DNA from: a virus
DNA: 28,004 nt
IMG/VR virus record: IMGVR_UViG_3300044986_000704
Span: 1-28,004 of that record
Strand: one strand, 5' to 3'
Position numbers and translations under genes: made by a program
Part shown: positions 245 to 16,476 of the stretch, piece after piece
How the letters are laid out: every line of letters begins with the position of its first letter
How positions within the stretch are numbered: the first letter of the stretch is position 1
The notes under the pieces: model-generated
Seen by the model: the letters and a program-made list of their open reading frames with translations, nothing else
Told to the model about the DNA's origin: nothing
Database searches by the model: none

Positions 245-276
245 ATTGGTGTGCGGTGGTGGTGGTTGTAGGTTTG
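245..276 (+). promoter_or_regulatory. Bacteroidota-type promoter directly on the 281 start codon
   Basis: TAGGTTTG at 269-276 matches the Bacteroidota -7 element TAnnTTTG exactly. An ATTG at 245-248 lies 20 bases upstream, the expected distance for the -33 TTTG-like element. The ATG begins only 4 bases after the motif, so transcription should start on or very near the start codon. Confidence 0.6.
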
Positions 277-280
277 CGGC

Positions 281-868
281 ATGGGAGAGAATGACGGTGG
301 AGGGAAGGTGATCGACATGGGTGAGAAGCCTATGGAGCCCTTTGTGGCGAACACGGAGACGGGTGAGCACAGGAAGATCAGTGAGCTGACCAGGGAGGAG
401 CAGATCAGGCTGTTGAAGGAGAAGGCAACGGAGCTGCGTAAGGAGTTTGTGCGCTCAGGCCAGCCTGTTCTGGAAGCGGCCATTGATGAGGTACGTTCGA
501 TGCAGGTGCGGCTCAATGAGCTTGGCATGTATGAGTCACACAGGATACTGGCGCGGATAGGTGTCAGGGCCGCATGGTGTGTGAGCGGGGGGATGGACAT
601 GGGAACGGTGACCGACCATGTGCTTGCGGGATACCGTGGTGTGGTGGCATGGCATGACAGCAAGGTGAGCGGTACGGGGCCAGTGAAGGGTGATGTGGTG
701 GCCATGGTCACCAGAATCATCAATGTGGGCAACACGCTCTATGCGCTGCTGCAGAAGTTTGAACCCATGAGGGGAGACGTGGTGAGGATGTTGACGGCAC
801 TTGAGGAGTGCAGGGAAGTGATCATGATTGAATCAGACGAACTGATTAATGGCGATGGACAAGCGTAA
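281..868 (+). CDS. Unrecognised phage protein, 195 aa
   Basis: This is the first gene of the window, placed immediately behind a TAnnTTTG promoter motif. The ATG at 281 is chosen because of that motif. The protein is soluble-looking, with no signal peptide or membrane segment. A polar N-terminal ~35 residues precedes a charged helical stretch (about 35-80) rich in Glu, Lys and Arg. Several further probable helices follow, with small-residue patches around 95-130. I recognise no domain or catalytic motif. The next gene starts inside its 3' end (20-base overlap), so the two are probably co-translated and may work together. It could be an accessory virion protein or an early/regulatory protein. 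Confidence 0.75.
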   Translation: MGENDGGGKVIDMGEKPMEPFVANTETGEHRKISELTREEQIRLLKEKATELRKEFVRSGQPVLEAAIDEVRSMQVRLNELGMYESHRILARIGVRAAWCVSGGMDMGTVTDHVLAGYRGVVAWHDSKVSGTGPVKGDVVAMVTRIINVGNTLYALLQKFEPMRGDVVRMLTALEECREVIMIESDELINGDGQA

Positions 869-1538
869 CAATATCAGGGGCGACAGGTCGCTCCTTGTGC
901 CCGAGCTTTTGGCAGGGCCATTCATGGCGGCAGGTCTGGGGGGTGTGGCCCACGCACCGCTGGCCTGTGTCTCAACGGTGTTCCGCAAGGTGGTGCTGAT
1001 GAAGCACGGTGGGATACTGGCCGACATCGAGACGGTGTATCGGGAGCATGCGGAATCAAAGCCGTTCAAGGTGCGGCACTCGTATGAGTCGGAGGTGCCG
1101 GCCCATGACGACCTGGTGAACACGTTCGCGAGGCTGACCCCCCACTTCCTGATGCTCACCGAGATGGAGGGCTATGACATGGACTCGACCGACAGGCAGC
1201 TGCTTGACATGATGCATGACGGGATACCAGGGGATGCTGAGCACAGGGCGTTGAAGTGGAGGATGCGCATATTGCTGCAGCACTCAGACATGGATGACAT
1301 GAAGGGAGGTGTTCAGATACACGGGCAGAGGCGCATAACGAGGACGAGCAAGGCTGTTCCGCTGCTGTCTCCGCTCATCCAGTGGGGAGAGGACTATCCG
1401 CACATGAGGGCGTTGCAGGATGCCTGTGAGGACCTATGGACGGAGACAAGGCTGTATCTGCAGGGCAAGCATGCCATGGGTCAGCTCGAGATGTTCGGTG
1501 AGGAGATTGGTGCTGACGGACTGGCTCAGGCGGTGTGA
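849..1538 (+). CDS. Unrecognised phage protein, 229 aa
   Basis: The gene overlaps the preceding one by 20 bases and shares its transcription unit. Two in-frame ATGs are possible (849 and 855); 849 is used here. The N-terminal third has a hydrophobic, small-residue segment (about 16-48), but it is interrupted by charged residues and is not a clear membrane helix. The rest is mostly helical and rich in Asp, Glu, Met and His, with frequent HxxMxxM-like patterns. I see no known active site. A 30-base gap holding nothing recognisable separates it from the metallopeptidase-like gene. Function unknown. Confidence 0.72.
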   Translation: MAMDKRNNIRGDRSLLVPELLAGPFMAAGLGGVAHAPLACVSTVFRKVVLMKHGGILADIETVYREHAESKPFKVRHSYESEVPAHDDLVNTFARLTPHFLMLTEMEGYDMDSTDRQLLDMMHDGIPGDAEHRALKWRMRILLQHSDMDDMKGGVQIHGQRRITRTSKAVPLLSPLIQWGEDYPHMRALQDACEDLWTETRLYLQGKHAMGQLEMFGEEIGADGLAQAV

Positions 1539-1568
1539 TGGTTATGAGCTGATCGCAAGGCAGAGAGC

Positions 1569-2231
1569 ATGAAGATTGAGAACCACTTTTTTCGGGCAGA
1601 CGGCACGAGGGTTGAAGGGTACATATTGCCCAACGGCGTGCTTCTGCGACCATGCCAACACGATGGCGTTGACTTCTGGTTCTTCTGGAACGAGACGTAC
1701 GAGGCACTGTTCTGTGTGGCAAGGAGCAACAGCAACAAGACCTTGGGAAAGGTGTTCTGTTCGGGCGAGGACTACTTTGGTGAAAAGGACGGCCCGCGGC
1801 TGACTTCAGATATGTTCGCCTGCAGCGGATATGTGGACTGCACGTTGCCGAACGGTGAGTTGGACAAATGGAAGTGCGTGTTCATTGTGGCATCAAAGGA
1901 CCATTACCTTCCATTCAGGATGAGTGTGCTGGCGCATGAGTCGTTCCATGCAATGGAGTTCCTGTTGGATCACATCGGAGAGACAAAGCGCGGGGAAGAG
2001 CAACAGGCATATCTGGTCATGTGGGTGTTTGACCAGTGCGTACGCCTATTGCCGGGTGCCAATCAGATGCTCTATGCCAAGGATGATGGATGGAAGCCCC
2101 TTGCATTACGGCCACCATCACTGGATTCAAACCAGACAGACAGCGCGGAATCAGCTCACGCGCATGAGAGACTTGCGCCTAAACCCCCTTCGGCAAGGGA
2201 CAAACAACAAACTGACAATGGGAGGCAATGA
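1569..2231 (+). CDS. Putative HExxH zinc metallopeptidase-like protein, 220 aa
   Basis: Residues 121-127 read LAHESFH, giving a HExxH zinc-site motif (H123, E124, H127) in a predicted helix. About 16 residues further on is a GEEQQAY stretch (142-148) whose Glu could be the third zinc ligand, as in gluzincins. Small uncharacterised phage proteins with a similar helix (HE..H followed by an acidic residue and AY) are a familiar sight, so this probably belongs to that group. The N-terminal ~115 residues look beta-rich, with several Cys. The last ~50 residues are Pro/Ser/Gln-rich and probably disordered. No signal peptide is visible, so it would act in the cytoplasm or virion. Possible roles are prohead or virion protein processing, or cleavage of a host protein. 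The catalytic role is inferred only. Confidence 0.65.
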   Translation: MKIENHFFRADGTRVEGYILPNGVLLRPCQHDGVDFWFFWNETYEALFCVARSNSNKTLGKVFCSGEDYFGEKDGPRLTSDMFACSGYVDCTLPNGELDKWKCVFIVASKDHYLPFRMSVLAHESFHAMEFLLDHIGETKRGEEQQAYLVMWVFDQCVRLLPGANQMLYAKDDGWKPLALRPPSLDSNQTDSAESAHAHERLAPKPPSARDKQQTDNGRQ

Positions 2232-2505
2232 TCAAAACCCAAAGGCATCGACAGAGATTGAGCGTGTCTATCATCACGCAAGGAATCAGGTAGAAACTGC
2301 GGCCAACATTCTTGACCAGCTGTCACATAGCACAGAAAAGCTTTGTGGTTCGCACACTGCTGATAGGGTGCGCGCAGAGCGTGAAACGCTGGAACCAGCT
2401 TGCCCTGATGGTGCGCTTTTCTCGATTATCAAGGAGCTGAATCAGATTCAGGCCCTGTTGTACCAGATTGGGAGAAAGGCAGACGTACTCTCTGAGGTCA
2501 TTTGA
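2218..2505 (+). CDS. Small helical protein, 95 aa, unrecognised
   Basis: The start at 2218 (protein beginning MGGNDQ) overlaps the end of the metallopeptidase-like gene by 14 bases. The frame stays open further upstream, but that part would lie entirely inside the neighbour and has unnatural composition, so it is left out. The protein is almost wholly helical: residues ~10-45 (ERVYHHARNQVETAANILDQ and on) and ~65-92 look like two amphipathic helices joined by a loop with two Cys. A small helical-bundle or coiled-coil accessory protein is likely. It is the last gene before a 280-base gene-free stretch with a terminator. Confidence 0.65.
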   Translation: MGGNDQNPKASTEIERVYHHARNQVETAANILDQLSHSTEKLCGSHTADRVRAERETLEPACPDGALFSIIKELNQIQALLYQIGRKADVLSEVI

Positions 2506-2564
2506 TTGAACCCCATCCCCTGAGAAAGGGTCTATGAAGGTCTGACACAGCGGTTAGGGTTGCC

Positions 2565-2595
2565 GTCCGGGGGTTGCGTCCCTCTGCCCCCGGAC
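2565..2595 (+). other. Strong RNA hairpin, 9-bp stem
   Basis: GTCCGGGGG (2565-2573) pairs perfectly with CCCCCGGAC (2587-2595) around a 13-base loop. No T-tract follows (the next bases are AAATTAC), so this is not a terminator by itself. Confidence 0.75.
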
Positions 2596-2600
2596 AAATT

Positions 2601-2620
2601 ACAGGTGAGGCATCACCTGT
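2601..2620 (+). other. Perfect 8-bp hairpin with GGCA loop
   Basis: ACAGGTGA (2601-2608) pairs with TCACCTGT (2613-2620) around the loop GGCA. It lies 5 bases after the preceding hairpin, so the two could stack. As DNA it is also an inverted repeat that could bind a dimeric protein. Confidence 0.75.
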
Positions 2621-2700
2621 TCTGAGGTATCAAAGGGCGATGCTGTGTACGATACGACCCGCCAAGAAGAGCCGACCACGGGCAGGCAAGACGGTGGACG

Positions 2701-2735
2701 ACCCCCGATGCAGAAATGTGTCGGGGGTTTTTGTT
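2701..2735 (+). terminator. Intrinsic (Rho-independent) terminator
   Basis: ACCCCCGA (2701-2708) pairs with TCGGGGGT (2721-2728), with a 12-base loop. The stem is followed at once by a T-rich tract (TTTTTGTTT region, to about 2736). It closes the first transcription unit after the four genes at 281-2505. Confidence 0.85.
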
Positions 2736-2757
2736 TATACCCATTCCCGATCTTTTG

Positions 2758-2765
2758 CATATTTG
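2758..2765 (+). promoter_or_regulatory. Weak -7-like promoter motif
   Basis: CATATTTG matches TAnnTTTG with one mismatch, and a TTTTTG lies 24 bases upstream, further than usual. It sits between the terminator and the ATG at 2786, so a promoter is expected about here, but the match is poor. Confidence 0.35.
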
Positions 2766-2785
2766 TGCTCTCAACCAGCGGCACA

Positions 2786-3442
2786 ATGTTCACCAAGATC
2801 AACGACAGGATTCAGAACACCTTTGGCCAGATACTGCGCCTCGGTCTTGTTGGAACAGCTTCGACCGATGATGATGCAGTCCCTTATGGTCAGGCCAAGG
2901 AGATGCTGCAGAACATCACTCTTCAAGAAGGCAAGACGATTGAGAGCACGATCAGGATATTCAACAGTGAAGTTGATGGCCTGACAGTCAAGCACTTCGG
3001 TGTAGGGATGATAAAGACCGTGATCACATTCACGGATGTGGTACTTGGTGCGTTTGACGGCACACCCGGTGACCTTGGCTTTGGGTTCGATCTTAGTAGC
3101 AACAGCGCACCAATGCTGATTCATGCCGTATCTCCTTCGCTCTCGATTGAGATTGAGGGCACGGCCCACGATGTGGAGTGTGCAATTGGCACAAGGGATA
3201 TCACAGGAGAGACAGATGCAACGATTGCCGCGGCCCCGGCTCAGTGCAGTAATATTTCAGATGGGTTGGCAATTACCTGTGACGGCACTGATACGGCCTA
3301 TACGGACTACAAAAAGAGCGGCTTTATCAGTACGTCAGATGTTTATCTGAACATCTGCGGAGCATGGGTCGCTGACAATGAGGGCGATATTGTTGCCAAC
3401 GGCACGATTGTGATTGTGTGGAACCCCATGACCGCTGACTAA
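2786..3442 (+). CDS. Putative beta-rich structural protein, 218 aa
   Basis: The frame extends back to 2645, but that extension would run through the terminator hairpin and encode an unnatural Pro/Arg-rich leader. The ATG at 2786, just after the terminator and promoter-like motif, is the credible start (protein beginning MFTKINDRIQNTFGQ). A short N-terminal amphipathic helix is followed by about 180 residues dominated by alternating hydrophobic/polar strands rich in Gly, Thr, Ser and Asp (for example VIVWNPM near the end), typical of phage surface or decoration proteins. No membrane segment or catalytic motif is seen. Its stop overlaps the ATG of the next gene (TAATG). It heads a group of likely surface proteins. 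The exact role (head fibre, decoration or tail) is not resolved. Confidence 0.7.
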   Translation: MFTKINDRIQNTFGQILRLGLVGTASTDDDAVPYGQAKEMLQNITLQEGKTIESTIRIFNSEVDGLTVKHFGVGMIKTVITFTDVVLGAFDGTPGDLGFGFDLSSNSAPMLIHAVSPSLSIEIEGTAHDVECAIGTRDITGETDATIAAAPAQCSNISDGLAITCDGTDTAYTDYKKSGFISTSDVYLNICGAWVADNEGDIVANGTIVIVWNPMTAD

Positions 3443-3723
3443 TGGAAACAGAGTATTCAGAATTTCACAAGCAACGTGACTCCGCAAACAGCGGTGGGAG
3501 CGGATATGTGATCATCGCAAATGGTCAGAGCACACCGGCTGACGCTGTGATAAGAGAGATACTTGTGCTTGGCGCGGGCGGCACACTCGGGACTGTTGGT
3601 TACAGCAACGGCACGGACATCTCGAACATGACCTTTGCACAGGGCCTGAGCTTCTGTGGCCGATGGAAGAACATCACGGCTGCAGCAGGGGCAACGAATT
3701 CCTTCTACTGCTACTTCCTATGA
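3442..3723 (+). CDS. Small Gly/Thr-rich structural protein, 93 aa
   Basis: The start overlaps the previous stop (TAATG), and its own stop overlaps the next start (ATGA), so it is locked into a translated operon. The sequence is short, Gly/Ser/Asn/Ala-rich and strand-forming, ending in an aromatic FYCYFL. This resembles the small beta-sandwich proteins often coded beside phage decoration or fibre genes. No enzyme motif is visible. It is probably a minor virion component assembling with the 2786 and 3720 products. Function inferred from context only. Confidence 0.65.
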   Translation: METEYSEFHKQRDSANSGGSGYVIIANGQSTPADAVIREILVLGAGGTLGTVGYSNGTDISNMTFAQGLSFCGRWKNITAAAGATNSFYCYFL

Positions 3724-4532: not shown

Positions 4533-4729
4533 GGGTTCATTTATACACTCAAGAGGCCGCTGCCAATGCAGCCGCAGAACTGGTCAACACGGCAAACCCG
4601 ATGCCGGACGGCTCAGAGACACTTGGATACTGTGCACCAGAACTGTTGGTTGACAAGTGGATAATCAGGGCAGATGATATCACCATTGCCGCCCTTGGCG
4701 ATGACCTTGTTACGGATATCGCATTTTAG
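4529..4729 (+). CDS. Small protein, 66 aa, unrecognised
   Basis: The ATGA overlap with the preceding stop supports the start. The protein has an Ala-rich helix (residues ~7-22) and then a mixed segment ending in aliphatic/acidic stretches. It is the only gene here that ends in TAG. It lies directly downstream of the putative fibre gene and could be a fibre chaperone or minor structural protein, but nothing specific shows this. A new promoter-like motif follows immediately. Confidence 0.6.
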   Translation: MRVHLYTQEAAANAAAELVNTANPMPDGSETLGYCAPELLVDKWIIRADDITIAALGDDLVTDIAF

Positions 4730-4732
4730 GCC

Positions 4733-4740
4733 CATCTTTG
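4733..4740 (+). promoter_or_regulatory. -7-like promoter motif 4 bases before the 4745 ATG
   Basis: CATCTTTG matches TAnnTTTG with one mismatch and sits exactly 4 bases before the start codon, as at 281 and 15664. A CTTG at 4706-4709 is a possible -33 element, but its spacing (23 bases) is long. Confidence 0.45.
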
Positions 4741-4744
4741 GCCC

Positions 4745-5305
4745 ATGTCCAACAGAAGGCCAAACACACTCATCCTTCACAATGTGACCGCCATCAGGAC
4801 GGTGCGGCCAGTACCGGAGAATGTGGTGCGCATATGGGGCAGTACTGATGAGGACGTTGTCGTGTCACTGCATAAGCGCGATGCACTCATGCATATCGCT
4901 CTGGCCGATAGCACGACCACCAATGTGCGCAACGTACTGCAATACGCCTACGGGAACGGTATCCAGTACTTCAAGAGCGTAGTTGACTCAGACACGGAGC
5001 CGTTCGTGAATGAGAGCAATGCCATGGTCTATCTGCGCCCATGGACCTTTGCGATTGACATGAAAAAGCTCCGCGCCATTGTCAGGGCATGGAAGGCAAA
5101 CGAGGGCGGTGCATATGACCTGACCGTACTCTTTGACGGCAACTACAAGGAGATTGGGCTGTTGCATGATCTCGCACACATTTTAGGGTGCAGCACGGAC
5201 AAGATGCCGGGCATGGGCACTGAGGACCTGAGCATTTACCTCGCGCGTTGGGGCGGTATGCCTGGGGCAGAGAAGTTCGCCTACCCATACAACATCAAGC
5301 TATGA
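4745..5305 (+). CDS. Unrecognised phage protein, 186 aa
   Basis: The gene starts 15 bases after the previous stop, right behind a -7-like motif, so it may head a transcription unit running into the terminase genes. The protein is mixed alpha/beta and soluble, with no membrane segment. Residues ~10-60 look strand-rich; ~100-120 (MKKLRAIVRAWKANEG) are clearly helical; a short HDLAHIL segment lies near 140-147. That His-containing segment is not a HExxH motif. The stop overlaps the start of the membrane-protein gene (ATGA). No function assigned. Confidence 0.72.
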   Translation: MSNRRPNTLILHNVTAIRTVRPVPENVVRIWGSTDEDVVVSLHKRDALMHIALADSTTTNVRNVLQYAYGNGIQYFKSVVDSDTEPFVNESNAMVYLRPWTFAIDMKKLRAIVRAWKANEGGAYDLTVLFDGNYKEIGLLHDLAHILGCSTDKMPGMGTEDLSIYLARWGGMPGAEKFAYPYNIKL

Positions 5306-6165: not shown

Positions 6166-6698
6166 ACGCTCTGTTCGATGTGGATGCCAATGGGCATATC
6201 GTGGTCAAGGACAGGCGCATCATGCTTGTCCCTGAGTTTCGCGATGTGCTTGACCTGCCAAAGGGAGAGAAGTGGTTCACCTACGTGTTCTGCGTGGCCG
6301 ACTACCTCTCACCGTATGCCCATGTGGTAAAGGAGACGGACAGGGAGAAGCAGGTATATGCGGATGTAATCGGGCCAGGGGCAATGAAGATCCCGGGTCA
6401 GGTCGCCCCGGCCATCAAGAAGTACTATCAGCTGCAGTTCAACAACGATCAGCGGATACTCAGAGTGCTGAACGGCAAGCTGGCAGAGGCAACAGACTCA
6501 TTGGAGATACTCGAGGCCAAAGACCAGAAGGGGATGATGGAGATCATCACCATGAGTTCAAAGCTCACGGAGCAGCACAAAAAGGTAAAGGAACACGAGG
6601 CCAACATCACCAAGCTCAGCATGGCCAATCATGTCAGCAAGATTTACGAAGGACTTAGTATCATTGAGGTCAAGCTGAGGCAGAAGCAGGAAGAATGA
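6162..6698 (+). CDS. Terminase-adjacent protein, possible small terminase, 178 aa
   Basis: The gene lies immediately upstream of the large terminase gene, with ATGA overlaps at both ends, where a small terminase subunit is commonly found. Residues ~10-75 contain a pattern I associate with proteins found next to TerL in Bacteroidota phages: an LVPEFRDVL segment, then a FTYVFCVADYLSPYAH segment and a charged ETDREK helix. Residues ~95-178 form a long charged coiled coil ending in KLRQKQEE. A coiled coil could drive ring or oligomer formation, as in small terminases. I see no classical helix-turn-helix, so the assignment remains a proposal. Confidence 0.62.
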   Translation: MNALFDVDANGHIVVKDRRIMLVPEFRDVLDLPKGEKWFTYVFCVADYLSPYAHVVKETDREKQVYADVIGPGAMKIPGQVAPAIKKYYQLQFNNDQRILRVLNGKLAEATDSLEILEAKDQKGMMEIITMSSKLTEQHKKVKEHEANITKLSMANHVSKIYEGLSIIEVKLRQKQEE

Positions 6699-8656
6699 GA
6701 CTTGGGAGCGATTATGCGCCCGTTGTGCGAGAGGGCCGGCCAAATAAGCGGGACGGCCTGAACTACTATAACAGCTGGTGGGATGAGCAGATAGGCCGTA
6801 TCACAAACGGTTGGACAACGCCATGGGGGGAGTATGTTGACCCAGATATGTACTTCTATCTCAACTTTGGTACGATAGAGGGATTTCTCAAGGCATCGGA
6901 CACGCGCAAGTCACCGATGAGGCCGCTGTATCTGGACGGTCAGCATGGGTGGTTCCTGAGCAAGGAAGGGGTCATTCAGAAGCAGCGGGCCGGTCTGCCC
7001 GGAAAGGCAGGCCTTGTGACAGGCAAGGGCCGCAGGAAAGGATACACATGGATGGTCGAGCACATGGTGCTTCGTAGGCTCATCACCCAGAGTAACAGTC
7101 GCTGTGCCATCGGTTCTGATGGTGAGGTCAGTCAGGGATATGTGAAGGATTTCAGGCTCAAGTTGCTGTTCTCCTATCAGCACCTGCCCAATGAACTAAA
7201 GGCCTGTATTGACACAAAGCGCGGGGCCATCAACAACAGTGACCTGATCAAGTCACAGTACAAGGACACGGTCGATGGAAGGGACCAGATATTCGGGCTA
7301 GAGAGCGAGGTTCACTTTAAGAACACGAGCAATCCGTCCTGCTTTAAGGGCCTTGGGCTTGACCTGGGCGTGATAGAGGAGGCGGGTGAGGTCGGATTTC
7401 TCCGCGAGGCCATTGACGAGAGCAAGGACTGCTACAAGGAAGGGGATATGTACTACGGCCTGCAGCTGGTCGGTGGCACATCGAACAAGATCAAGTATGA
7501 CTCGGAGGATTTTCAGAACCTGATGCTCAACCCCGAGGCCGCAGATTTCAGCTCATACTTCTTTCCCGCACAGGTCAATTACTATCCCTGCTATTCACGG
7601 GAGACTGGTAAGAGTGACGAGGTCGCAGCTGCCAAGTTGATCAATGACGAGGCCGAAAGACTCAAGGCCGCAGGTGACCTTAAAAGTTACTACTCACATA
7701 GGCAGAACAACCCCACCAAGGTGGAGGATATGTTCAACATCTATGGCGGTGGCCGGCTCAGCATTGAGCACATCAACCGTCAGCTGGGCTATCTGATGTC
7801 AATGGAGTCTGTGCGGGAAAAGGTTAAGCGTGGCAGGCTTGAATGGATAGTCGATGCCGCGGGCAAGACGCGCAAGGACAAGGCTCCGATATTTGAGGAG
7901 GACCCCATGGGGAACTGGGAAATGTACCTTGGTCCGCATACTGTGCCCGGCTACGAGGTCAGCGCCATTGACTCATACTACCTGAGTAACGAGTTCGGAG
8001 GCGGTGCTGACACCGATTCAAAGGGAGCCATGTGCGTGTTCCGACAGTTCGTGGACATGAGAACAACAGGGCGACTACCTGTTGCCATATATCACGGCAG
8101 ACCGTCAACCAAGACCGATTGGTATGAGGAGACGGCCAAGGGCAATATGTACTATGGCATCAAGCGCAAGTGCCTGGTCGAGTACAATGATGAGGAACTA
8201 CTGAGGTGGTACGTGGAGAACGGTTATGAGAACCAGCTCATGTTACGACCTGCATCGGCTGACGCGCCCAATTCTGTCGCGGCCAATAGGTACGGAGTTC
8301 ACATGAAGGGACACCAGAAGGACCTTCTGACCCGTCTGCTTGATGAGTACGTGAAGCAAAGCGCAGAAAACATCATGTTCACCGGTCTGCTCAAAGAGCT
8401 GAGTGTCTATGGATTGAAGAACACAGACCGTGCGATTACTTTTGGCCTGTGCCTACTGGCCGACTTTGCAAGTGTCTCCTACCCGGATCCAACGGAACCG
8501 ACAGAAAAGGAGATAGCTGAGACGAGAAAAGCCATGAGGCCGCAACTGATCGACCAGAACGGGGTTCCCGTGATGATAGGCCAGAGAACGGACGATCCAT
8601 ACCGGCAGGAGCCGGATGGTGGGATTGGGGACAGACGATGGGCTAACCTACTATGA
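6695..8656 (+). CDS. terL: Terminase large subunit (packaging ATPase and nuclease), 653 aa
   Basis: The TerL motor drives DNA into proheads and cuts it. The N-terminal ATPase domain has a degenerate Walker A (GKGRRKGYT, 110-118), a Walker B with catalytic acidic pair (LGVIEEAGE, 224-232) and a coupling motif (GGTSN, 260-264). The C-terminal RuvC-like nuclease begins near 418 with its first Asp in VSAIDSYY (D425). A later acidic position is likely in NTDRAITFGLCLLAD (D577). The non-canonical Walker A lacking GKS/T is typical of TerL proteins in Bacteroidota/crAss-like phages as I remember them. The length fits the family. ATGA couples it to the genes on both sides, including portal, the classical order. 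Confidence 0.92.
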   Translation: MRLGSDYAPVVREGRPNKRDGLNYYNSWWDEQIGRITNGWTTPWGEYVDPDMYFYLNFGTIEGFLKASDTRKSPMRPLYLDGQHGWFLSKEGVIQKQRAGLPGKAGLVTGKGRRKGYTWMVEHMVLRRLITQSNSRCAIGSDGEVSQGYVKDFRLKLLFSYQHLPNELKACIDTKRGAINNSDLIKSQYKDTVDGRDQIFGLESEVHFKNTSNPSCFKGLGLDLGVIEEAGEVGFLREAIDESKDCYKEGDMYYGLQLVGGTSNKIKYDSEDFQNLMLNPEAADFSSYFFPAQVNYYPCYSRETGKSDEVAAAKLINDEAERLKAAGDLKSYYSHRQNNPTKVEDMFNIYGGGRLSIEHINRQLGYLMSMESVREKVKRGRLEWIVDAAGKTRKDKAPIFEEDPMGNWEMYLGPHTVPGYEVSAIDSYYLSNEFGGGADTDSKGAMCVFRQFVDMRTTGRLPVAIYHGRPSTKTDWYEETAKGNMYYGIKRKCLVEYNDEELLRWYVENGYENQLMLRPASADAPNSVAANRYGVHMKGHQKDLLTRLLDEYVKQSAENIMFTGLLKELSVYGLKNTDRAITFGLCLLADFASVSYPDPTEPTEKEIAETRKAMRPQLIDQNGVPVMIGQRTDDPYRQEPDGGIGDRRWANLL

Positions 8657-10857
8657 CACAACAACCGAGTCTATTTGTTCCGAGCGATAACGCCAACTAT
8701 GATGCGTGGATCAAGGCTTGGGGAGCATTCCTGACATTACAGATAAGCTCAGACGACCCTGAGCGAAAGACAATACACGAGGACTTTAACGTATTCTTCG
8801 GAACCTTCAATGCCTCCAAGTTCAAGTACCTCACAGAACAGTACGGCATCCGCACACCAGCCCGACTGGTGAGCTATCCTCTGTTGAACCGCATGGTGAA
8901 CTTCCTTGTCAATGAGGTTCGCAACGAGAGCCTTGACGTAGGTGTTGAGTGTATTGATGAGACGGTGATCAACGAACAGCTTGACAAACGTGCCCGTGCC
9001 GCGGCTGAGGTGCTGCTCAGGCCCATGCGCAGACAGCTTGAGAAGGAGATCAAGACCAAGATGCCGGACGACATGACCCACATCCCCATTCCCGATAGCC
9101 CCGAGGAGTTCATGAATATGGATTGGAAGGCTGAGGAAGAGGTGGCAATGCAATGGGCACTGAGGTATATGAACCTGACATACTCGCTGGACACCATGTT
9201 TCAGGACGGTATGCGTGACCTGGTGCTATCCTATCGGGAGATATATGACATCGGGCCGGGCGACAAGGACCCAAGCGTGAGGCGGGTCGATCCGCGCAAT
9301 ATCCGCTATGCCAAGACCACATCATCGTGGATTCAGGACAGCCCATGGATAGTCGAAGAGACGTTGGAGCCAATCACCGATGTGCTCCATGAGTTCAGGG
9401 GAGAGATTGAGCGTTCACCTGAACTGCATCTAGTCCTTGATTCATTGGCAACAGGAAAGCAGGATGCGTTGACCAAGTATCATGCGAACGGATGGGTTCA
9501 CACTGATTCAACCGGGCACCTTGTAAGGGTCGTGCGGTACAGGTGGAGAGCTATCAGACCACTGACCTACAAGTTTTCAGAGAACAAGTACCAGCCCAAT
9601 ATCCCGTTTGTCAAGAAAGTAAGCCCGACAGAGGTCGGACAGAACATCAAGACCTTTCCGATTGAAGACGTTTATGTTGGGGTGTGCATCTGTGGATATC
9701 ATATCTCGCAGGGCCGCAAGTACAACCAGGTGCGCAAGGCAGGGAACTACGCAAGGGCAACGCACGGATATGTGGGCTGTGTCCGTGATACCCCATCGCT
9801 CACGCAGATGATCAAGCACCTGTTGGTGTTCTATTTCATTGTCATGTACCACATTGAGGCCACCCTCAACCGCGCAGGTGGTAAGGCAGTGGTCTATGAC
9901 ATGGCTCAGAAACCCGCCAACGTGCCCATCAATGATGTGTTCTTCCATGCCAAGGAGGGCGGGATGATCCTCATCAACAGTGCACAGACAGGCATGAATC
10001 TGTTGAACCGCGCCAGTTTCAACCAGTTTCAGTCCGTTGACTTTACTTTGAGTTCATCGATCACTCAGCTCATCAATCTAAAGATGATGATTGAAAGCAC
10101 GGCAGAGAGATTCATCGGCATGAACGATTCGGTGCTTGGTGCGGCAAAGACAGATGAGGCCGTTGGTCTGAATGAGAGCAAGGTCCGTCAGTCCGGCCTC
10201 ATCACGCAGAACCTGTATGACGACCACTATCAGGTGCTGGACGGGGTAATGACTGAGGTAATAGGTCAGCTGAGGTATCACTGGCCCCACGATAAGAAGC
10301 GCACCCTGCGCCTGTTCGGGGAGCGAGGCCTTCAACTTTTTGATTTCAACGGCAAGGCACTGCAATACGAATACGGGCTGTTCATCCGCAACAACCAGAA
10401 AGAGCGTCAGCTTAAGGCCCGGTTGCAAAACGCGGCAGAGAAGAGTTATGTGGCTGGTCAGATGGAGCTTGAGGACTGGCTGAAAATCATGAACGCCAAC
10501 AACAGCCGTGAGATGGAGCGCAGTCTGAAAGAAGGCATCCGCACCATCAAGCAGCTGAGCGAGATGAAGCAGCAGGGAGATATGGCCCTTGCCAAGGAGA
10601 AGAACGAGCTGACAAGGTTGAGCATCCAGAGCCGCATTGAGGCTGCCCGTATTGAGGCACAGGCCTATGTGGAGACACAGAAGATGAAGATGGCGATGGA
10701 CAAAGAGGGCAACATCCGCGACAACATGATCAAGGTGAATCAGGTTGCTGATGAAAGCCGTTCTGCCCTTGCGGGCCCATCAGCCATCATGAATCAGCCG
10801 TTCCCGAGCGGGGAGCCACAACAGCCCACGGGAGAGGAGATAATGCCTGAAATGTGA
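8653..10857 (+). CDS. Portal protein, 734 aa
   Basis: The gene directly follows TerL with an ATGA overlap, the usual place for the dodecameric portal that forms the DNA channel at one capsid vertex. The length suits a podovirus/crAss-like portal. The central region has recognisable portal-like segments: helical stretches around 375-400 (LLVFYFIVMYHIEATLNRA) and a segment near 495-535 with GLNESKVRQSG followed by a long helix. The C-terminal ~645-690 is a charged Ala/Glu/Lys/Arg helix (SRIEAARIEAQAYVE), probably a coiled-coil barrel entering the capsid. The final ~35 residues are Pro/Gly-rich. A promoter-like motif before the scaffold gene follows after 18 bases. Confidence 0.88.
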   Translation: MTQQPSLFVPSDNANYDAWIKAWGAFLTLQISSDDPERKTIHEDFNVFFGTFNASKFKYLTEQYGIRTPARLVSYPLLNRMVNFLVNEVRNESLDVGVECIDETVINEQLDKRARAAAEVLLRPMRRQLEKEIKTKMPDDMTHIPIPDSPEEFMNMDWKAEEEVAMQWALRYMNLTYSLDTMFQDGMRDLVLSYREIYDIGPGDKDPSVRRVDPRNIRYAKTTSSWIQDSPWIVEETLEPITDVLHEFRGEIERSPELHLVLDSLATGKQDALTKYHANGWVHTDSTGHLVRVVRYRWRAIRPLTYKFSENKYQPNIPFVKKVSPTEVGQNIKTFPIEDVYVGVCICGYHISQGRKYNQVRKAGNYARATHGYVGCVRDTPSLTQMIKHLLVFYFIVMYHIEATLNRAGGKAVVYDMAQKPANVPINDVFFHAKEGGMILINSAQTGMNLLNRASFNQFQSVDFTLSSSITQLINLKMMIESTAERFIGMNDSVLGAAKTDEAVGLNESKVRQSGLITQNLYDDHYQVLDGVMTEVIGQLRYHWPHDKKRTLRLFGERGLQLFDFNGKALQYEYGLFIRNNQKERQLKARLQNAAEKSYVAGQMELEDWLKIMNANNSREMERSLKEGIRTIKQLSEMKQQGDMALAKEKNELTRLSIQSRIEAARIEAQAYVETQKMKMAMDKEGNIRDNMIKVNQVADESRSALAGPSAIMNQPFPSGEPQQPTGEEIMPEM

Positions 10858-10875
10858 TCGGAGCGATTTTGCATA

Positions 10876-10883
10876 TAGCTTTG
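10876..10883 (+). promoter_or_regulatory. TAnnTTTG promoter motif before the scaffold/capsid genes
   Basis: TAGCTTTG matches the -7 consensus exactly and is followed by C, as at 281 and 15664. The ATG at 10889 is 5 bases downstream. A TGTG at 10853-10856, 19 bases upstream, is the only -33 candidate and is weak. A promoter here would boost scaffold and capsid expression. Confidence 0.5.
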
Positions 10884-10888
10884 CGCTC

Positions 10889-11977
10889 ATGGAGAACACC
10901 CAAGCAGGCGCAGCAGGCGCACCGGCATTTGACCCAACGGCATGGCTGAACAAGGGAGCAGCCGTAGAGGCCCCTGTTTCGCCCACACCTAACGCGACTG
11001 TTGCGGGTCAGCAGCATCAGGCGGCACCGACCGTTGCTCAGCAGATTGAGCTCAATCAGATAAGGGCCGGGCATGTGAAGCAGGCGGACGGCACCTATGC
11101 CCCACCCGCAGGTGCACAGCCCGCAGCGGCAGCGGCCCAGCCCGCGTCACCAGATGGAGGTGCCGCGGCTGCAGCAGCACCAGCTCCTGCAAAAGGAGGC
11201 CTTGTCATTGATGAACAGGGCATCATAGAACTGCGTAAGGTGATTGGCAAGAATGACGGTGAGCTCACCGTAGCCGACATATCGGCTGCGATTGCCGAAA
11301 GAGAGGCCCGTCTGACGGCCCACAACGAGACATTGGCCGCTGGCGGCATCTTTGTCAACGACACTATCAAGGACATACGCGCAACACTCGCGCTTGATGA
11401 CAGGGAGTTTGTGAAAAAGATGCTCGGTAAGAGCGTCCCCGCATCTTCCCTGGACTCAGTGGTGGACAACATCATTGTCAGTAATCAGCTCAAGGCAACA
11501 GCCGATGGCTTCCGCACGGAGTTGAATACCCAGTTGACTACCGAGGAGACACGTCTCAAGAGTGAGCATGATGCGCGTGTTCAGGCGGCCTTAGCGCAAA
11601 AGACCGCCCCTGATGTAACGGCTGTTACCGCACGGTATGTGGCAGCAGCCAAGGACATTTCGACCATTGCCGGGGTCAGCCTTGGCAAGACACCGGAGGA
11701 GGTGAGCACGGTTGTCGGCAAGGCCGCAGCCGCACTTGCAGACGGGTCTTTCGCCAGGGATGTGGTTGGCAATGATGCGAACATGATCCAACTCGCACTG
11801 CTTTGGCAGTCGCGGGAAACTTTAGGCTCTGTGCTGACTGAACTTGGTCGGCAGCAAGGCAAGGCAGCCCTGTTACTTGAAGAACTTGGAAACGTGCGTC
11901 CTGCTGATCAGCATGGCGTAGTCCCTGTTCCCGGTGACGGGACGTTCGATCCCAATAAATTCAGGCAAAGAGCCTGA
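10889..11977 (+). CDS. Capsid scaffolding protein (putative), 362 aa
   Basis: The gene lies between portal and major capsid protein, the standard place for a scaffold that guides procapsid assembly and is then removed. The N-terminal ~105 residues are Ala/Pro/Gln/Gly-rich, low-complexity and likely disordered, with a poly-Ala block near 80-100. Residues ~105-330 are acidic and mostly helical, with coiled-coil character at ~200-235 (LTTEETRLKSEHDARVQ). The C-terminus ends in a basic NKFRQRA, which resembles the basic capsid-binding tail of some scaffolds. No protease signature is visible. An internal virion protein is the main alternative. Confidence 0.72.
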   Translation: MENTQAGAAGAPAFDPTAWLNKGAAVEAPVSPTPNATVAGQQHQAAPTVAQQIELNQIRAGHVKQADGTYAPPAGAQPAAAAAQPASPDGGAAAAAAPAPAKGGLVIDEQGIIELRKVIGKNDGELTVADISAAIAEREARLTAHNETLAAGGIFVNDTIKDIRATLALDDREFVKKMLGKSVPASSLDSVVDNIIVSNQLKATADGFRTELNTQLTTEETRLKSEHDARVQAALAQKTAPDVTAVTARYVAAAKDISTIAGVSLGKTPEEVSTVVGKAAAALADGSFARDVVGNDANMIQLALLWQSRETLGSVLTELGRQQGKAALLLEELGNVRPADQHGVVPVPGDGTFDPNKFRQRA

Positions 11978-11992
11978 TAATTCCTTTCAGTC

Positions 11993-13384
11993 ATGCAGAT
12001 CACAACCGGTACGTTCGGGGCCACAACCCTCGAGAGCAATAGCCTTGTGGCCAATTTGCTCAAGTACCCAAGCATCAACACAACCCTCGTGGACCTGTGG
12101 CCTCAGTACACCCTCAGCTCGTTTGTTGAGAGGACTGAGCGCTATGCCACTGAGGTGGAGTATGCGGATAAGCGCGTCCAGTGGGCCGCAAAGAACCGCA
12201 CCCGCAGGGCAAGCCGCATCCTGACCGCTTCGGCTCCGGCCTCAGCAGCCACGGTATCCGGCCCAAGCATTTTGTGGACCATCAACTTTGACCCACAGGA
12301 GGACCACGTGTACCCTAATGACATCATCAACCTGTTCGATGTGAACGTGATGATTGTCAGCAAATTGGGCAACACCGCCACTGTGCGTATCCACAACTAC
12401 GATTCAACCGTGACCGTGACCATGGCAAACCTTACAGGGGTGCAATGTGGCGTGATCGGTACAGCGTACCCCGAGGGCAGCACCGGAGGCCAATCCGTGC
12501 ATGGGTTCCCAGACTGGTACGACAACTACATGAGCATCCAGCGCAGGACGTTCGACATCACGGGCAGTGCCTATACCGATGTCACATGGATTGAGAACAA
12601 CGGCCAGAAGCTGTGGTATTTCACTGCCATGCAGGACTTCTTGGACAACTGGGCCTATGAGAAGGAGATTAAGCGTTGGGTCGGTACACGTACCGTCACG
12701 GCTGCAGGAGCCCCGACACAGTTCGACCAGAACGGCAAGCCCATCTATGATGGTGACGGTCTGTTGGCTCAGGGAGACTCTGGCCTTATGGACTCGTATG
12801 CCAACGGAGTGATCACCCGTTCACAGATTGACAGCTTCGTGCAGTCGCTCAAGAAGAACGGAGGTGTCATGGAAGGCGGGGAAATCATGGTGTGGGGCGG
12901 TCTGGCCGCTCAGCAGGTGTTCTCAAACGCCATGCAGAACGCCTACCTGCCTAACGGCAACGTGGTGTGGAACCCGACTGCAGGCGCGAACATCTCGCTC
13001 GGTGGACACTTTACCACCTATTTCACGATGGGTGTGAAACTGACCTTTGCCCTGTGCCCGTTCTTCGATGACGAGACTGTTTTTGGCAGCGACATCATCA
13101 CCAGTGCAGCATTGGGTGGTGCGTTCAATCGCAGGTCATTCGACATGATCTTCGTGAACACCTCGCTGATGGGCAAAGGTTCAAACCTTGAGCTTGCTGT
13201 TAAGTCAGCCGGTGGCATCAACCGTGCGAATGTGGTGAAGTACATCTCTGGCATGTTCGACCCGCACAACCCATCTTCGATGTATGCAATGACATCGGAT
13301 GATAAGTTCAGCGTGGAGGTACTGTGCGAGTCTGCGCTGATCCTCAAGAACGGCAAAGCTTTCGGCAGGCTCTTCCACGCCTGA
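11993..13384 (+). CDS. Major capsid protein (probable), 463 aa
   Basis: The gene follows the scaffold gene after 15 bases and has its own 3' gap, as expected for an abundant product. Its length and mixed alpha/beta, Trp/Asn/Gly-rich sequence fit an HK97-fold shell protein of the crAss-like type. Visible features are an N-terminal arm-like region (~1-80), beta-rich stretches at 85-170, a long helix near 205-225 (DFLDNWAYEKEIKRWVG) that could be the spine, another at ~275-290 (SQIDSFVQSLKKNG), and a strand-rich C-terminus (SVEVLCESALILKNGKAFGR). No HK97-type protease or crosslinking residue can be assigned. The call rests mainly on order, length and composition. Confidence 0.78.
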   Translation: MQITTGTFGATTLESNSLVANLLKYPSINTTLVDLWPQYTLSSFVERTERYATEVEYADKRVQWAAKNRTRRASRILTASAPASAATVSGPSILWTINFDPQEDHVYPNDIINLFDVNVMIVSKLGNTATVRIHNYDSTVTVTMANLTGVQCGVIGTAYPEGSTGGQSVHGFPDWYDNYMSIQRRTFDITGSAYTDVTWIENNGQKLWYFTAMQDFLDNWAYEKEIKRWVGTRTVTAAGAPTQFDQNGKPIYDGDGLLAQGDSGLMDSYANGVITRSQIDSFVQSLKKNGGVMEGGEIMVWGGLAAQQVFSNAMQNAYLPNGNVVWNPTAGANISLGGHFTTYFTMGVKLTFALCPFFDDETVFGSDIITSAALGGAFNRRSFDMIFVNTSLMGKGSNLELAVKSAGGINRANVVKYISGMFDPHNPSSMYAMTSDDKFSVEVLCESALILKNGKAFGRLFHA

Positions 13385-13433
13385 TCTCTGAACTGACAAT
13401 CACTTCATCTACCAACTATCAATAACCACAACA
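13385..13433 (+). promoter_or_regulatory. A/C-rich unstructured leader before the 13434 gene
   Basis: These 49 bases between the capsid gene and the next gene are rich in A and C (CAATAACCACAACA just before the ATG) and lack a Shine-Dalgarno sequence and any strong hairpin. Such A-rich, unpaired leaders favour translation start in Bacteroidota. No TAnnTTTG motif is seen. Confidence 0.45.
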
Positions 13434-14138
13434 ATGGCAAAATTGGCCAGCGGCAAAGAGTCTGTGTCACCATCTCAGATGCGTACAGGCAAGATCACGT
13501 TCCGACACGTTCGTAACAAAGGGCCATTCATTCTCAGGGAGCACGTTGACAAGAACGGAAAGCTTTTTGTGCTGAAAGACCCGGCTACCCGACAGGACAC
13601 GACCTACACGTTGCAGGGAGATAAGGAGTTTGACCTCAGCAATCCATTCAATAAGGCCGTGTTCGAGGGGTTCAAGAACCATCCCGTCTATTCTGAGAAG
13701 CTTCTGTTTGCAGAGCTTGAGGATACAGCGGCCAAGTCGATGGACTTTAGAAGGCTGAGGCGCGAACTGGAAGAGAACATTGATGCACTCGAGATCAAGA
13801 CCAGGGCAATGGCCCGTCTTGTCGGGCTTGCTGTTGACCGTGATGCCATTGTTGTGGTAAAGGATAAGTTGTGCAAGTATGTTGAGAATGCCAATAATGC
13901 TCAGCATCTAAAGTCGCTGCTGGACTCTCCGACATTAGACGAGAGGCTGATATTCACTGCTGCCAAGCACTTCGGGATAGTGACATCGACCAATGGAACG
14001 ATGTACTACAAGCAGGTGCTCATCGGCAACACGATTGATGCCGCTGTCGAATGGCTTGAGAAGAACCGCGACTATACGGGCGAGATCGTTCAACTCGTGG
14101 AACAGCGTCAGAACGCTGAGGAAGACCGACTGAAATGA
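13434..14138 (+). CDS. Structural or head-completion protein, unrecognised, 234 aa
   Basis: Located just after the capsid gene and coupled by ATGA to the adaptor-like gene, this is probably a head or neck component. The N-terminal ~75 residues look beta-rich (KITFRHVRNKGPFILREHV and on). Residues ~95-160 are charged and helical, with a likely coiled coil (RRLRRELEENIDALEIKTRA). The last ~40 residues are again helical and acidic (IVQLVEQRQNAEEDR). There is no membrane segment and no enzyme motif. A small head-completion, decoration-anchoring or late assembly role is possible; I do not recognise the family. Confidence 0.7.
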   Translation: MAKLASGKESVSPSQMRTGKITFRHVRNKGPFILREHVDKNGKLFVLKDPATRQDTTYTLQGDKEFDLSNPFNKAVFEGFKNHPVYSEKLLFAELEDTAAKSMDFRRLRRELEENIDALEIKTRAMARLVGLAVDRDAIVVVKDKLCKYVENANNAQHLKSLLDSPTLDERLIFTAAKHFGIVTSTNGTMYYKQVLIGNTIDAAVEWLEKNRDYTGEIVQLVEQRQNAEEDRLK

Positions 14139-14836
14139 CACTGGCAGAGATGCTCACGGAGTGCGATCTCCGGATTGATGAAGCCAATGCAGCGTGGTTC
14201 ACGGATGCAGAGAAACTTCGTTATCTGAATGACGCAACCCTGAGTCTCGTCCGTCAGCGTTATGAGGAAGGTTACGACACAAACGAAAGCATAAGGCAGG
14301 ACCTGGCCAATCTCACAGAGCCGGGCACCATCACTATGACACAGGTGGGCACAACACCGGAATGGCGCGGGAACATTGATGCCGTTACGACACCCATCGC
14401 AGGAACCACAGTGATGTTCGTCCTTGCATTGTCAGTCACATCGACACTTAGCGGTGCAAGCCGCACCGTTGGAGCAAGGGCCGTAAGGATAGCGGAATTG
14501 GATGGGATATTCCAGAGCCCATTCCTACGGCCCTCCCAGCGGGAGCCTAAGTATTACATCACCCATGACGGCACTACGAACACGGCAAGAAGGATATCCC
14601 TATGGGTGGGCTCTCCCAACCAGACGGTGACATTGCCCGTGGTCACGGGGGCCACATTGATTTATCTGCGCACTCCTCGCGCCATGGCCATCGGTTCTCC
14701 GAACACGGAGAGCGAATTGCCCGCGCACATTCATCCGCAGATCATATCTTTGGCCGTCACAAGAATGCTCGAATCAGTCGAGTCTGCCCGTACTCCGGGA
14801 TTCGCAAATGTTCAGGACGATAGAAGTCCTGAGTAA
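14135..14836 (+). CDS. Head-tail adaptor/connector-like protein, 233 aa
   Basis: The N-terminus (residues 2-45) has the helical pattern of phage head-tail adaptors: a helix, then WFTDAEKLRYLNDATLSLVR with a conserved-looking aromatic and an L-N-DA segment. Residues ~65-180 form a beta-rich insertion. The C-terminus has ELPAHIHPQIISLAVTRMLE (194-213), the LP-H-...-A-...-LE signature helix seen in P22 gp4-like and other adaptor proteins. This suggests it builds the ring below the portal. It follows an unknown head gene by ATGA overlap and precedes a beta-rich structural gene after 12 bases. The specific ring cannot be assigned. Confidence 0.68.
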   Translation: MTLAEMLTECDLRIDEANAAWFTDAEKLRYLNDATLSLVRQRYEEGYDTNESIRQDLANLTEPGTITMTQVGTTPEWRGNIDAVTTPIAGTTVMFVLALSVTSTLSGASRTVGARAVRIAELDGIFQSPFLRPSQREPKYYITHDGTTNTARRISLWVGSPNQTVTLPVVTGATLIYLRTPRAMAIGSPNTESELPAHIHPQIISLAVTRMLESVESARTPGFANVQDDRSPE

Positions 14837-14848
14837 TACTCCAAGACA

Positions 14849-15601
14849 ATGAGACGTACTGACCGTGGACACGCGATTGTGTCCCACTTCATCCCAGCGG
14901 GTGGTAACCCCACCCAGGCCAACGGTGTGGTCACATATGACATCGTGAACGGTCGCGAGATCGTCAAGTCTGACATCAAGCGTGTTCAGGCTGTCGAGAC
15001 TGGTGTTGCAGGCACGGCCTGTGTCCGTACCGTGGTGTTCGGTGGAACTGTTGCCCTCGGCAATACCTACAGCTTGAGCATTGTCGGTTGGAAACCTGGT
15101 CGCGAGGGTCACAGCCCTATTGTGATCAACCTGCGTCAGCCTTCGACAGGCACAGCCTACACGACCGCTCAGCTTGCTGACCAGCTTGTGGCTGCTGTGA
15201 ACCAACGGAAGTTGGGCATTACCGCTGCCATCGGTGGCACTTCATCCACGGTCGTTCTGACCGCTGGTGAGCTTGGCCCCGACTTCAAGGTGTCGTACTC
15301 GACTGACAGCGCAGCCGGTACTGTGACCGTGACCAACACTACTGCAGGGGTATATCCCCTTGGCGTGGAGGCCACCGTGCTTGCTCTGGACCCGGTAGCC
15401 ACAGCCGCTGCATGTCCAGATCTGTGCGCACGTACCAAGGTGTGGGTTGACCGCTTCAACCACGATGGCGTGGCTGAGCGTTTCGAGCTGCATCTGTACT
15501 GGGGCGACAGTTCATCGGGGGCATCTGCCGCTGATGCTGCTGCTTTTGCCGCTCTGTTTGACGAGGCCACGGCTGCAGATCAGTTTGTTCACATCGCGTG
15601 A
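14849..15601 (+). CDS. Beta-rich virion protein, 250 aa
   Basis: This is the last gene before a strong intrinsic terminator, closing the head operon. The protein is rich in Gly, Thr, Ala and Val with long strand-forming runs (~45-75 and ~105-175), and ends in a Ser/Ala-rich segment and an Ala-rich helix. Composition and regular codon use suggest an abundant structural component such as a decoration or tube-like protein. No membrane segment or enzyme motif is visible. In a short-tailed phage a capsid decoration or neck role is more likely than a tail tube, but the sequence alone does not settle it. Confidence 0.68.
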   Translation: MRRTDRGHAIVSHFIPAGGNPTQANGVVTYDIVNGREIVKSDIKRVQAVETGVAGTACVRTVVFGGTVALGNTYSLSIVGWKPGREGHSPIVINLRQPSTGTAYTTAQLADQLVAAVNQRKLGITAAIGGTSSTVVLTAGELGPDFKVSYSTDSAAGTVTVTNTTAGVYPLGVEATVLALDPVATAAACPDLCARTKVWVDRFNHDGVAERFELHLYWGDSSSGASAADAAAFAALFDEATAADQFVHIA

Positions 15602-15621
15602 TCGGTCGCGTATCAGGAAAG

Positions 15622-15646
15622 AGGGGGCTTCGGCCCCCTTTTTTTT
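15622..15646 (+). terminator. Intrinsic terminator with UUCG tetraloop
   Basis: AGGGGGC (15622-15628) pairs with GCCCCCT (15633-15639) around TTCG, giving a C(UUCG)G-closed, very stable hairpin followed by eight T (15639-15646). It separates the head operon from the neck/tail operon. Confidence 0.93.
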
Positions 15647-15651
15647 GCACC

Positions 15652-15659
15652 TAACTTTG
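15652..15659 (+). promoter_or_regulatory. TAnnTTTG promoter motif before the neck/tail operon
   Basis: TAACTTTG matches the -7 consensus exactly, sits 6 bases after the terminator T-tract and 4 bases before the ATG at 15664. A TTCG 19 bases upstream, within the terminator loop, is the only -33 candidate. The context (terminator then promoter) makes a new transcription start here likely. Confidence 0.6.
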
Positions 15660-15663
15660 CCCC

Positions 15664-16476
15664 ATGGCAACACTATCAGAAGCGGTACATGATGTGCTGC
15701 ACATCATCCAACAGGGCAGGCTCTCGCAGGACCAACCATTTGAACGGCCACAGGTTGCGTACTGGATTCACCGCAGAAGGGCTGAGGTGATCCTCAAGAT
15801 ACTCGGGCAGAGCAAGACCTACATGGTCGATCCTGTGTGGTATCAGCCCTTGAGACATCTTGAGCTGCTGCAGGTGGACAGGAACGCCTCCCCGATACTC
15901 GAGGTGGAAACTGAGTGCATGCTGCATCATGTGCGTGTCCCGACCCCGATAGCATATGAGGGTGTGCCCCTCTTTGTACTTCAATGGCAGAACAGGCTAT
16001 CAGCCATCCCCATGGTGCACAATGACCGTGTGAGCGGATATGCCACAAGTAGGTCAGGCAGGCAGGCGGACTGGGGTTTTCTTACGGCAAGCAATGACGA
16101 CTCTTATATGGACCTGTTCGTGGTATCACCGATGAATCAGGAAGAGGAGAGGCTGTATATGCAGGCCCGTGTGGTGGCGATGAACCCTACCAGCGTGCCA
16201 CGTTACATTCAATCCGGTTCGCCTGCAACGTGGTCTGAGGTTCCGTTTGACTGGGACCGCGACCAGTATCCCATCAATGCGTTCGACCTGAACGAGGTCA
16301 TTGGCAGGGTGTTGCAACAGGACTTTGGACTGAGCCGGGCCGGAATGATTGACCTTCTGAATAACTTCGCGCCTGATGATGCGGAAGCGATTGCTAAACG
16401 GCTTGACCGAACGGGAAGCCCGTATGGTGGGATTCAGAGAGTTCGAGCAAGTAAACTGGCAAAAGATCGTCAATGA
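15664..16476 (+). CDS. Neck/ring protein of crAss-like type, 270 aa
   Basis: The N-terminal pattern LSQDQPFERPQVAYWIHRRR (20-39), followed by AEVILKIL, resembles the start of ring (neck) proteins of crAss-like phages: a polar segment, an aromatic, then a helix with a conserved Arg-Ala. Residues ~85-200 are strand-rich, including a middle segment (~125-150) with Ser/Arg/Gly loops. The last ~65 residues are helical (FDLNEVIGRVLQQDFG and on). No membrane segment. It starts the tail operon right behind a promoter motif and precedes the HU-like and second ring genes, the order expected for the collar between portal and muzzle. The particular ring position is not assignable. Confidence 0.7.
   Translation: MATLSEAVHDVLHIIQQGRLSQDQPFERPQVAYWIHRRRAEVILKILGQSKTYMVDPVWYQPLRHLELLQVDRNASPILEVETECMLHHVRVPTPIAYEGVPLFVLQWQNRLSAIPMVHNDRVSGYATSRSGRQADWGFLTASNDDSYMDLFVVSPMNQEEERLYMQARVVAMNPTSVPRYIQSGSPATWSEVPFDWDRDQYPINAFDLNEVIGRVLQQDFGLSRAGMIDLLNNFAPDDAEAIAKRLDRTGSPYGGIQRVRASKLAKDRQ

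Follow-up and report, generated by a model that had tools for sequence, protein, structure and literature searches.

The lambda cI message transcribed from PRM is the textbook leaderless mRNA of a phage. Among the Bacteroidota, sigma-A promoters combine a -33 TTTG with a -7 TAnnTTTG element. Published 5′-end mapping in Flavobacterium johnsoniae and F. psychrophilum locates the -7 box at positions -12 to -5 (PMC6847099, PMC9723704), with an F. johnsoniae consensus, TAHHTTTG, whose two variable positions lack G (PMC6847099). The same box stands before late genes of two described phages, crAss001 and the cultured Flavobacterium phage FpV4. Here we analyze TAnnTTTG-type elements in a viral DNA of 28,004 bases, the complete IMG/VR virus record IMGVR_UViG_3300044986_000704 (hereafter, the window), which comprises the structural part of a genome only. 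Four genes of the window carry such an element 4–5 bases before their ATG, a placement predicted to yield leaderless mRNAs, and at one of them, the gene for crAss ring protein 2 (ring-2), the element directly follows a predicted intrinsic terminator.

Compared with the Bacteroidota sigma-A promoter, the window sites share the -7 consensus, the + strand and a position at transcription-unit starts, but their box lies 4–5 nt from the ATG (vs. ~19–35), the -33 element is mostly absent, two sites have G at variable positions and the discriminator is C-rich. We read them as putative sites that work like Bacteroidota sigma-A promoters rather than as textbook members of that class. Bacterial and phage leaderless mRNAs resemble the window case in having the box one discriminator length from the AUG, no ribosome-binding leader and an AUG start, whereas the window case is a predicted one and involves structural (late) genes, a presumed Bacteroidota phage and a terminator at ring-2. 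In crAss001, gp40 occupies the ring-2 position in the tail-side unit and has a TATATTTG promoter, around which a terminator-like hairpin may form; unlike the window gene it is leadered, its box lying 35 nt before the ATG, and its orthology to ring-2 is read from gene order and from a tree with a long branch. None of the 96 crAss001 genes (annotated starts) has a box at spacing 4–5, the box being clearly used at 19–35. FpV4, with a terminase 22% identical to that of the window, shares the terminase-portal-gene-capsid order and carries TAAATTTG-N7-ATG before its post-portal gene and one TATCTTTG-N4-ATG elsewhere; it differs in that its ring-2-like gene is preceded by neither terminator nor box and in that most of its boxes are leadered (among 61 starts, one box at spacing 4 and one at 7).

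Promoter-like elements adjacent to start codons

The elements and the genes behind them are listed below; orthologues are those of L003, a collinear relative (IMGVR_UViG_3300010354_000944; 46% G+C) whose capsid protein is 65% identical to that of the window.

269..276, + strand: -7 element TAGGTTTG, spacer CGGC, on ATG 281 (exact motif match)
281..868, + strand: first predicted leaderless gene (open reading frame)
4733..4740, + strand: -7 element CATCTTTG, 5/6 match with the first T changed to C, spacer GCCC, on ATG 4745 (one-mismatch motif; L003 orthologue)
4745..5305, + strand: gene with an L003 orthologue 31% identical and with the same start (orthology)
10876..10883, + strand: -7 element TAGCTTTG, spacer CGCTC, on ATG 10889, which follows the portal gene after a 31-nt gap (exact motif; L003 orthologue)
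10889..11977, + strand: post-portal gene, between the genes for the portal and the major capsid protein (orthology)
15622..15645 (approximate limits), + strand: predicted intrinsic terminator, stem GGGGGC-TTCG-GCCCCC then eight T (fold minimum free energy -17.5 kcal/mol, z -2.2)
15652..15659, + strand: -7 element TAACTTTG, spacer CCCC, on ATG 15664 (exact motif; terminator and box in relatives)
15664..16476, + strand: crAss ring protein 2 gene (tail-ring), predicted leaderless (Pfam CrAss_Ring_2 PF25702, E 4.8e-9, 36.6 bits, cut-off 27)

All four elements described in the initial annotation, including the one with a mismatch at 4733–4740, were recovered by a motif search. TAnnTTTG as such is not enriched in the window (six matches, all on the + strand, with 7.0 expected on both strands); TAnnTTTG-N4-ATG occurs twice vs. 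0.19 expected, a count that 0/100 shuffles reach. When counting was anchored at the 26 gene starts, three exact boxes were found at spacing 4–5 (dinucleotide-shuffle mean 0.015; 0/3000 reach three), and across spacings 0 to 44 the exact element occurs at none but 4–5. One of these starts was taken as 2790, with its ATG near 2786, which leaves the result unaffected. The start is ATG at all sites, with no ribosome-binding leader signal, and the start codons at 15664, 10889 and 4745 are matched by homologues.

The layout at two of the genes is retained in L003. The orthologue of 4745 (L003:398) reads TATTTTTG-CCCGC-ATG and the orthologue of 10889 (L003:6463) reads TACATTTG-GCCCC-ATG; at both, the free positions and spacer letters differ from those of the window and TAnnTTTG-N5-ATG is kept. 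A pyrimidine preceding an A is the expected look of a transcription start. At the six on-ATG sites of the window and L003, bases -4 to -1 include no A (0/24 vs. 43/136 elsewhere, Fisher p 3e-4) and C in 18/24 (p 3e-5), with C at -1 in 6/6. Because of this composition, the bases before the ATG resemble a promoter discriminator ending in a C-A start, unlike the AT-rich signal found upstream of Bacteroidota genes (PMC3160421).

At three sites, 15664, 10889 and 4745, a promoter reading of the predicted elements has comparative support. Site 281 is the weakest of the four: no homologues or relatives covering it were found, PHROG and Pfam searches of gene 281–868 gave no match, and a candidate promoter there is suggested by the motif.

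A predicted terminator and a promoter-like box before ring-2

The hairpin before 15664 is G+C-rich and runs directly into a T-tract, the form of a predicted intrinsic terminator. Using a 1702-aa query and a ring-2 alignment, 29 ring-2 loci were retrieved, with ring-2 identity to the window down to 22–24%. Among 18 non-redundant records, a script found a hairpin and T-tract at most 45 nt ahead of the ring-2 ATG in 17, vs. 25 of 476 other genes; in the eighteenth, L097 (same phage as L026), a longer hairpin missed by the script was found by eye. The stems vary in sequence among records while their form is constant, and the distance from the counted stem to the ATG is 15–21 nt in most (33–34 in L003 and L096). 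A shared N-terminus among the homologues, MATL(S/N)E, fixes the start codon itself.

The box recurs at this gene as well. When the last 22 nt before the ATG were shuffled in 16 sequence clusters, exact TAnnTTTG at spacing 4–5, observed in 5/16, had a mean of 0.04, and a box matching at least 5/6, observed in 8/16, a mean of 0.97; neither observed count was reached in 5000 shuffles (0/5000 each). In relatives the box overlaps or abuts the T-tract, as in CTCCTTTTTTTT-TATATTTG-TATT-ATG. Cellulophaga phage phi14:2 has a hairpin about 20 nt before the ring-2 ATG without a box, and upstream of ring-2 in gut Suoliviridae neither hairpin nor box was found. In a tree with several long branches, an unsure deep order and three gut rows with shortened sequences, the window and L003 fall outside a clade of 16 relatives in which the terminator is likewise present.

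A possible overlap of promoter and terminator-like stem also occurs in crAss001 (L111, 35040–35150), where AAAACCCTTG...CAAGGGTTTT could form a hairpin whose loop seems to contain the gp40 promoter TATATTTG.

Spacing across gene starts of related phages

Spacing was then compared over 494 non-redundant starts from the window and its relatives, each taken as the longest ATG reading frame, with a filter that dropped gene 281 and near neighbors of its kind. Twelve of 65 exact elements lie at spacing 4–5 (six at 4, six at 5), though these are not independent, five of them coming from ring-2 orthologues. The histogram has a sharp peak at 4–5, which outnumbers 6–10 nt, and a separate broad group at ~17–26. 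Over 30 letter orders of the motif, the mean at spacing 4–5 was 0.8 with the target included, and the next highest order gave four.

Before the post-portal gene, most relatives carry the box, mostly 17–25 nt from the ATG (range 9–25); a distance of 5 nt is seen only in the window and L003. The putative promoter itself is thus ordinary in these phages, and its predicted on-ATG placement is specific to two cases: ring-2, in several lineages, and additional genes, in the lineage of the window and L003.

Model and alternative explanations

The elements are best explained, we think with good probability, by host-type promoters placed on start codons, which would give leaderless mRNAs; for site 281 this extends no further than the letters of the element. 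They would be Bacteroidota sigma-A promoters whose -7 box ends 4–5 bases before the start codon. Because the mapped box spans -12 to -5, a spacer of 4 puts +1 on the A of the ATG and a spacer of 5 puts it one base earlier, so transcription would begin at one of these two bases, and ribosomes would enter the leaderless mRNAs at the 5′-terminal AUG. At ring-2, the intrinsic terminator would end the capsid-side transcript, and the next promoter would lie directly behind or inside the T-tract, placing terminator, promoter and start codon within ~45 bp. In the window and L003, the on-ATG layout would open transcription units at 10889 and 4745, the bases that separate box and ATG being rich in C. 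We infer promoter activity, termination, exact 5′ ends and translation from a 5′-terminal AUG from the motif, its spacing, strand and conservation, the terminator fold and the start codons of three genes, which are themselves direct observations.

Several observations weigh against leaderless transcription from such promoters. Leaderless messages are rare in the host group: 3.7% of 5′ untranslated regions in Bacteroides thetaiotaomicron are shorter than 10 nt (PMC7366714), and 5.5% of F. psychrophilum mRNAs are leaderless. The Bacteroidota host is one that we infer, from crAss-like kinship and the promoter box. As initially annotated, the -33 element is clear at the first site only: the -7 box is preceded by TTG at a distance of 20 bp at 281 and of 23 bp at 4745, neither 10889 nor 15664 has the element at a plausible distance, and TTTG or TTG at ~19–21 bp is not a general feature of the sites. 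The variable positions are free of G at 15652 (AC), 4733 (TC), L003:385 and L003:6450, but contain G at 269 (GG) and 10876 (GC), which is almost never the case in F. johnsoniae promoters. The L003 orthologue of 15664 has the terminator and then TATGTTTG 19 nt before the ATG, and is thus leadered. At ring-2, one clade of rumen type carries TATTTTTA or TAATTTTA in place of TAnnTTTG, with the spacing unchanged. Finally, gene-blind string counts over whole related records barely differ from a reversed-pattern control (N4, 11 vs. 10; N5, 19 vs. 16). As this control ignores genes and strand, start-anchored letter-order and shuffle controls were used.

The initial annotation proposed that mRNAs start on or next to the ATG at all four genes. 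For 15664, 10889 and 4745 this remains the best explanation, given the mapped position of the box, conservation in L003 at 10889 and 4745 and, at 15664, a predicted terminator that in most relatives stands close before the ATG, whereas 281 lacks comparative support and has the disfavored GG. The proposal that the repeated spacing reflects a deliberate layout applies within this lineage and at ring-2 but does not generalize to the post-portal promoters of most relatives, to L003 ring-2 or to crAss001. Enrichment of the spacing over controls appears when counts are anchored at gene starts (3 vs. 0.015; 12/65 vs. 0.8) and hardly at all when they are gene-blind.

A different account would have long polycistronic mRNAs, with the ring-2 hairpin acting as a leaky attenuator or processing site, the T-rich stretch serving as an S1-type ribosome-binding leader and TAnnTTTG arising by coincidence. 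The T-rich bases before the ATG in AT-rich relatives, the clade without the exact box and the close packing of genes (gaps of 15–31 nt at 4745 and 10889) all fit such an arrangement. It does not, however, predict exact boxes at one spacing, five of which were found vs. 0.04 in shuffles that preserve T-richness; the same box 17–25 nt before the post-portal gene in many relatives fits a promoter and not a ribosome site, and in the window the bases before the ATG are C-rich and contain no A. We consider this account unlikely. Real promoters could also initiate a few bases upstream, or translation could begin at a downstream codon, giving short leaders of 3–40 nt. The point at which bacterial transcription starts does vary by a few bases, the spacing is 7 in L025 and FpV4 and 19 at L003 ring-2, and in gene 281 another in-frame ATG occurs at 317. 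This, too, we judge improbable, since homologues match the start codons of 15664, 10889 and 4745, and the exact 4–5 nt spacing dominates over 6–10 nt. As for accidental matches picked by eye, the total number of TAnnTTTG motifs in the window is not raised and site 281 lacks comparative support, but the start-anchored tests and conservation, the latter for 10889 and 15664, contradict chance, which has hardly any probability left as an account of the four sites together and is very unlikely for those two, though it may account for 281. A reading based on Escherichia coli sigma-70 promoters was rejected, promoter-like sites of that type being fewer than in shuffles.

Gene order, relatives and host

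Every assigned gene of the window (54% G+C) is on the + strand in a crAss-like structural order, which includes the following genes.

6695..8656, + strand: terminase large subunit (phrog_6681, E 4.7e-53)
8653..10857, + strand: portal protein (phrog_6547, E 1.3e-61)
11993..13384, + strand: Crassvirales-type major capsid protein (Pfam Crass_capsid PF23898, 64.6 bits, cut-off 27)

Membership in Crassvirales was assessed with PF23898 and PF25702, both of which score above their cut-offs in the window; the replication module and virion RNA polymerase that mark the ~90–100 kb genomes of the order lie beyond the structural part covered by the 28-kb record. The capsid protein and terminase share only ~22–26% identity with their counterparts in named crAss-like and Flavobacterium phages, and the product of 10889–11977 is putatively scaffold-like. 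Searches for relatives with the terminase and capsid proteins (single, two-row alignments) retrieved L003 alone, and bacterial genomes queried with portal and ring-2 gave no matches. G+C content is 54% in the window, 46% in L003 and about 28–40% in the others; because it varies so strongly among these phages, it suggests different hosts.

Other sites in the window and its relatives

The window has three intragenic TAnnTTTG boxes (8437–8444, 14745–14752 and 22308–22315), all of which are kept in L003 (baseline 7%; letter-order controls 7/55), and those at 8437 and 14745 sit in the two longest identical-codon runs between the two phages. The three boxes may be internal promoters; they are not retained in more distant relatives, and the protein sequence there is conserved between the window and L003. 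Behind the 14745 box (window 14757–14849; L003:10264–10346), three successive small hairpins can be folded in both phages, with CTCGA..TCGAG and CCCG..CGGG conserved, the first with changed loop letters, and with energies that are ordinary relative to shuffles. The stretch in which the aligned coding DNA is best conserved falls partly within this region.

A strong terminator also occurs at window 2700–2729, followed by CATATTTG about 20 nt before the ATG near 2786, a putative terminator-promoter pair with a short leader rather than a leaderless one. In L082, L086, L087, L088, L091 and L108, mostly on the strand opposite the structural genes, many small and probably early genes are preceded by perfect hairpins of 10–12 bp, 12–26 nt before the ATG, often with a TTCG loop and the core AGTAC-TTCG-GTACT. 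They could be terminators acting at individual genes or, alternatively, hairpin promoters for a phage RNA polymerase.

Discussion

None of the components is new: the promoter family is known, and so are leaderless initiation and terminators. A literature search with little coverage of subscription journals found no description of the ~45-bp terminator-promoter-start combination at a phage tail gene, as kept across distant crAss-like relatives, and no account of leaderless transcripts, or of TAnnTTTG promoters that had been mapped, in phages of Bacteroidota. From the comparisons made here, the predicted leaderless layout is real and specific to a lineage. It is a tentative and rather doubtful idea that leaderless starts would constitute a regulated mode of late expression in this lineage, in which ring-2 and other structural units stay leaderless to be translated by a route favored after the phage alters the translation or transcription state of the host, with the cassette insulating the tail unit from the capsid unit.

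Bacteroidota lack Shine-Dalgarno signals yet have few leaderless mRNAs (3.7–5.5% of mapped messages), and debate continues over how ribosomes in these bacteria locate start codons. A natural, compact test of leaderless initiation in this group is offered by a phage lineage that would repeatedly place a host promoter on the start codon, at one tail gene directly after a conserved predicted terminator. The very short promoter-start cassettes are possible genetic parts to try, and the layout, if it operates as predicted, would give a sequence-based rule by which transcription units could be predicted in crAss-like phages that have not been cultured.

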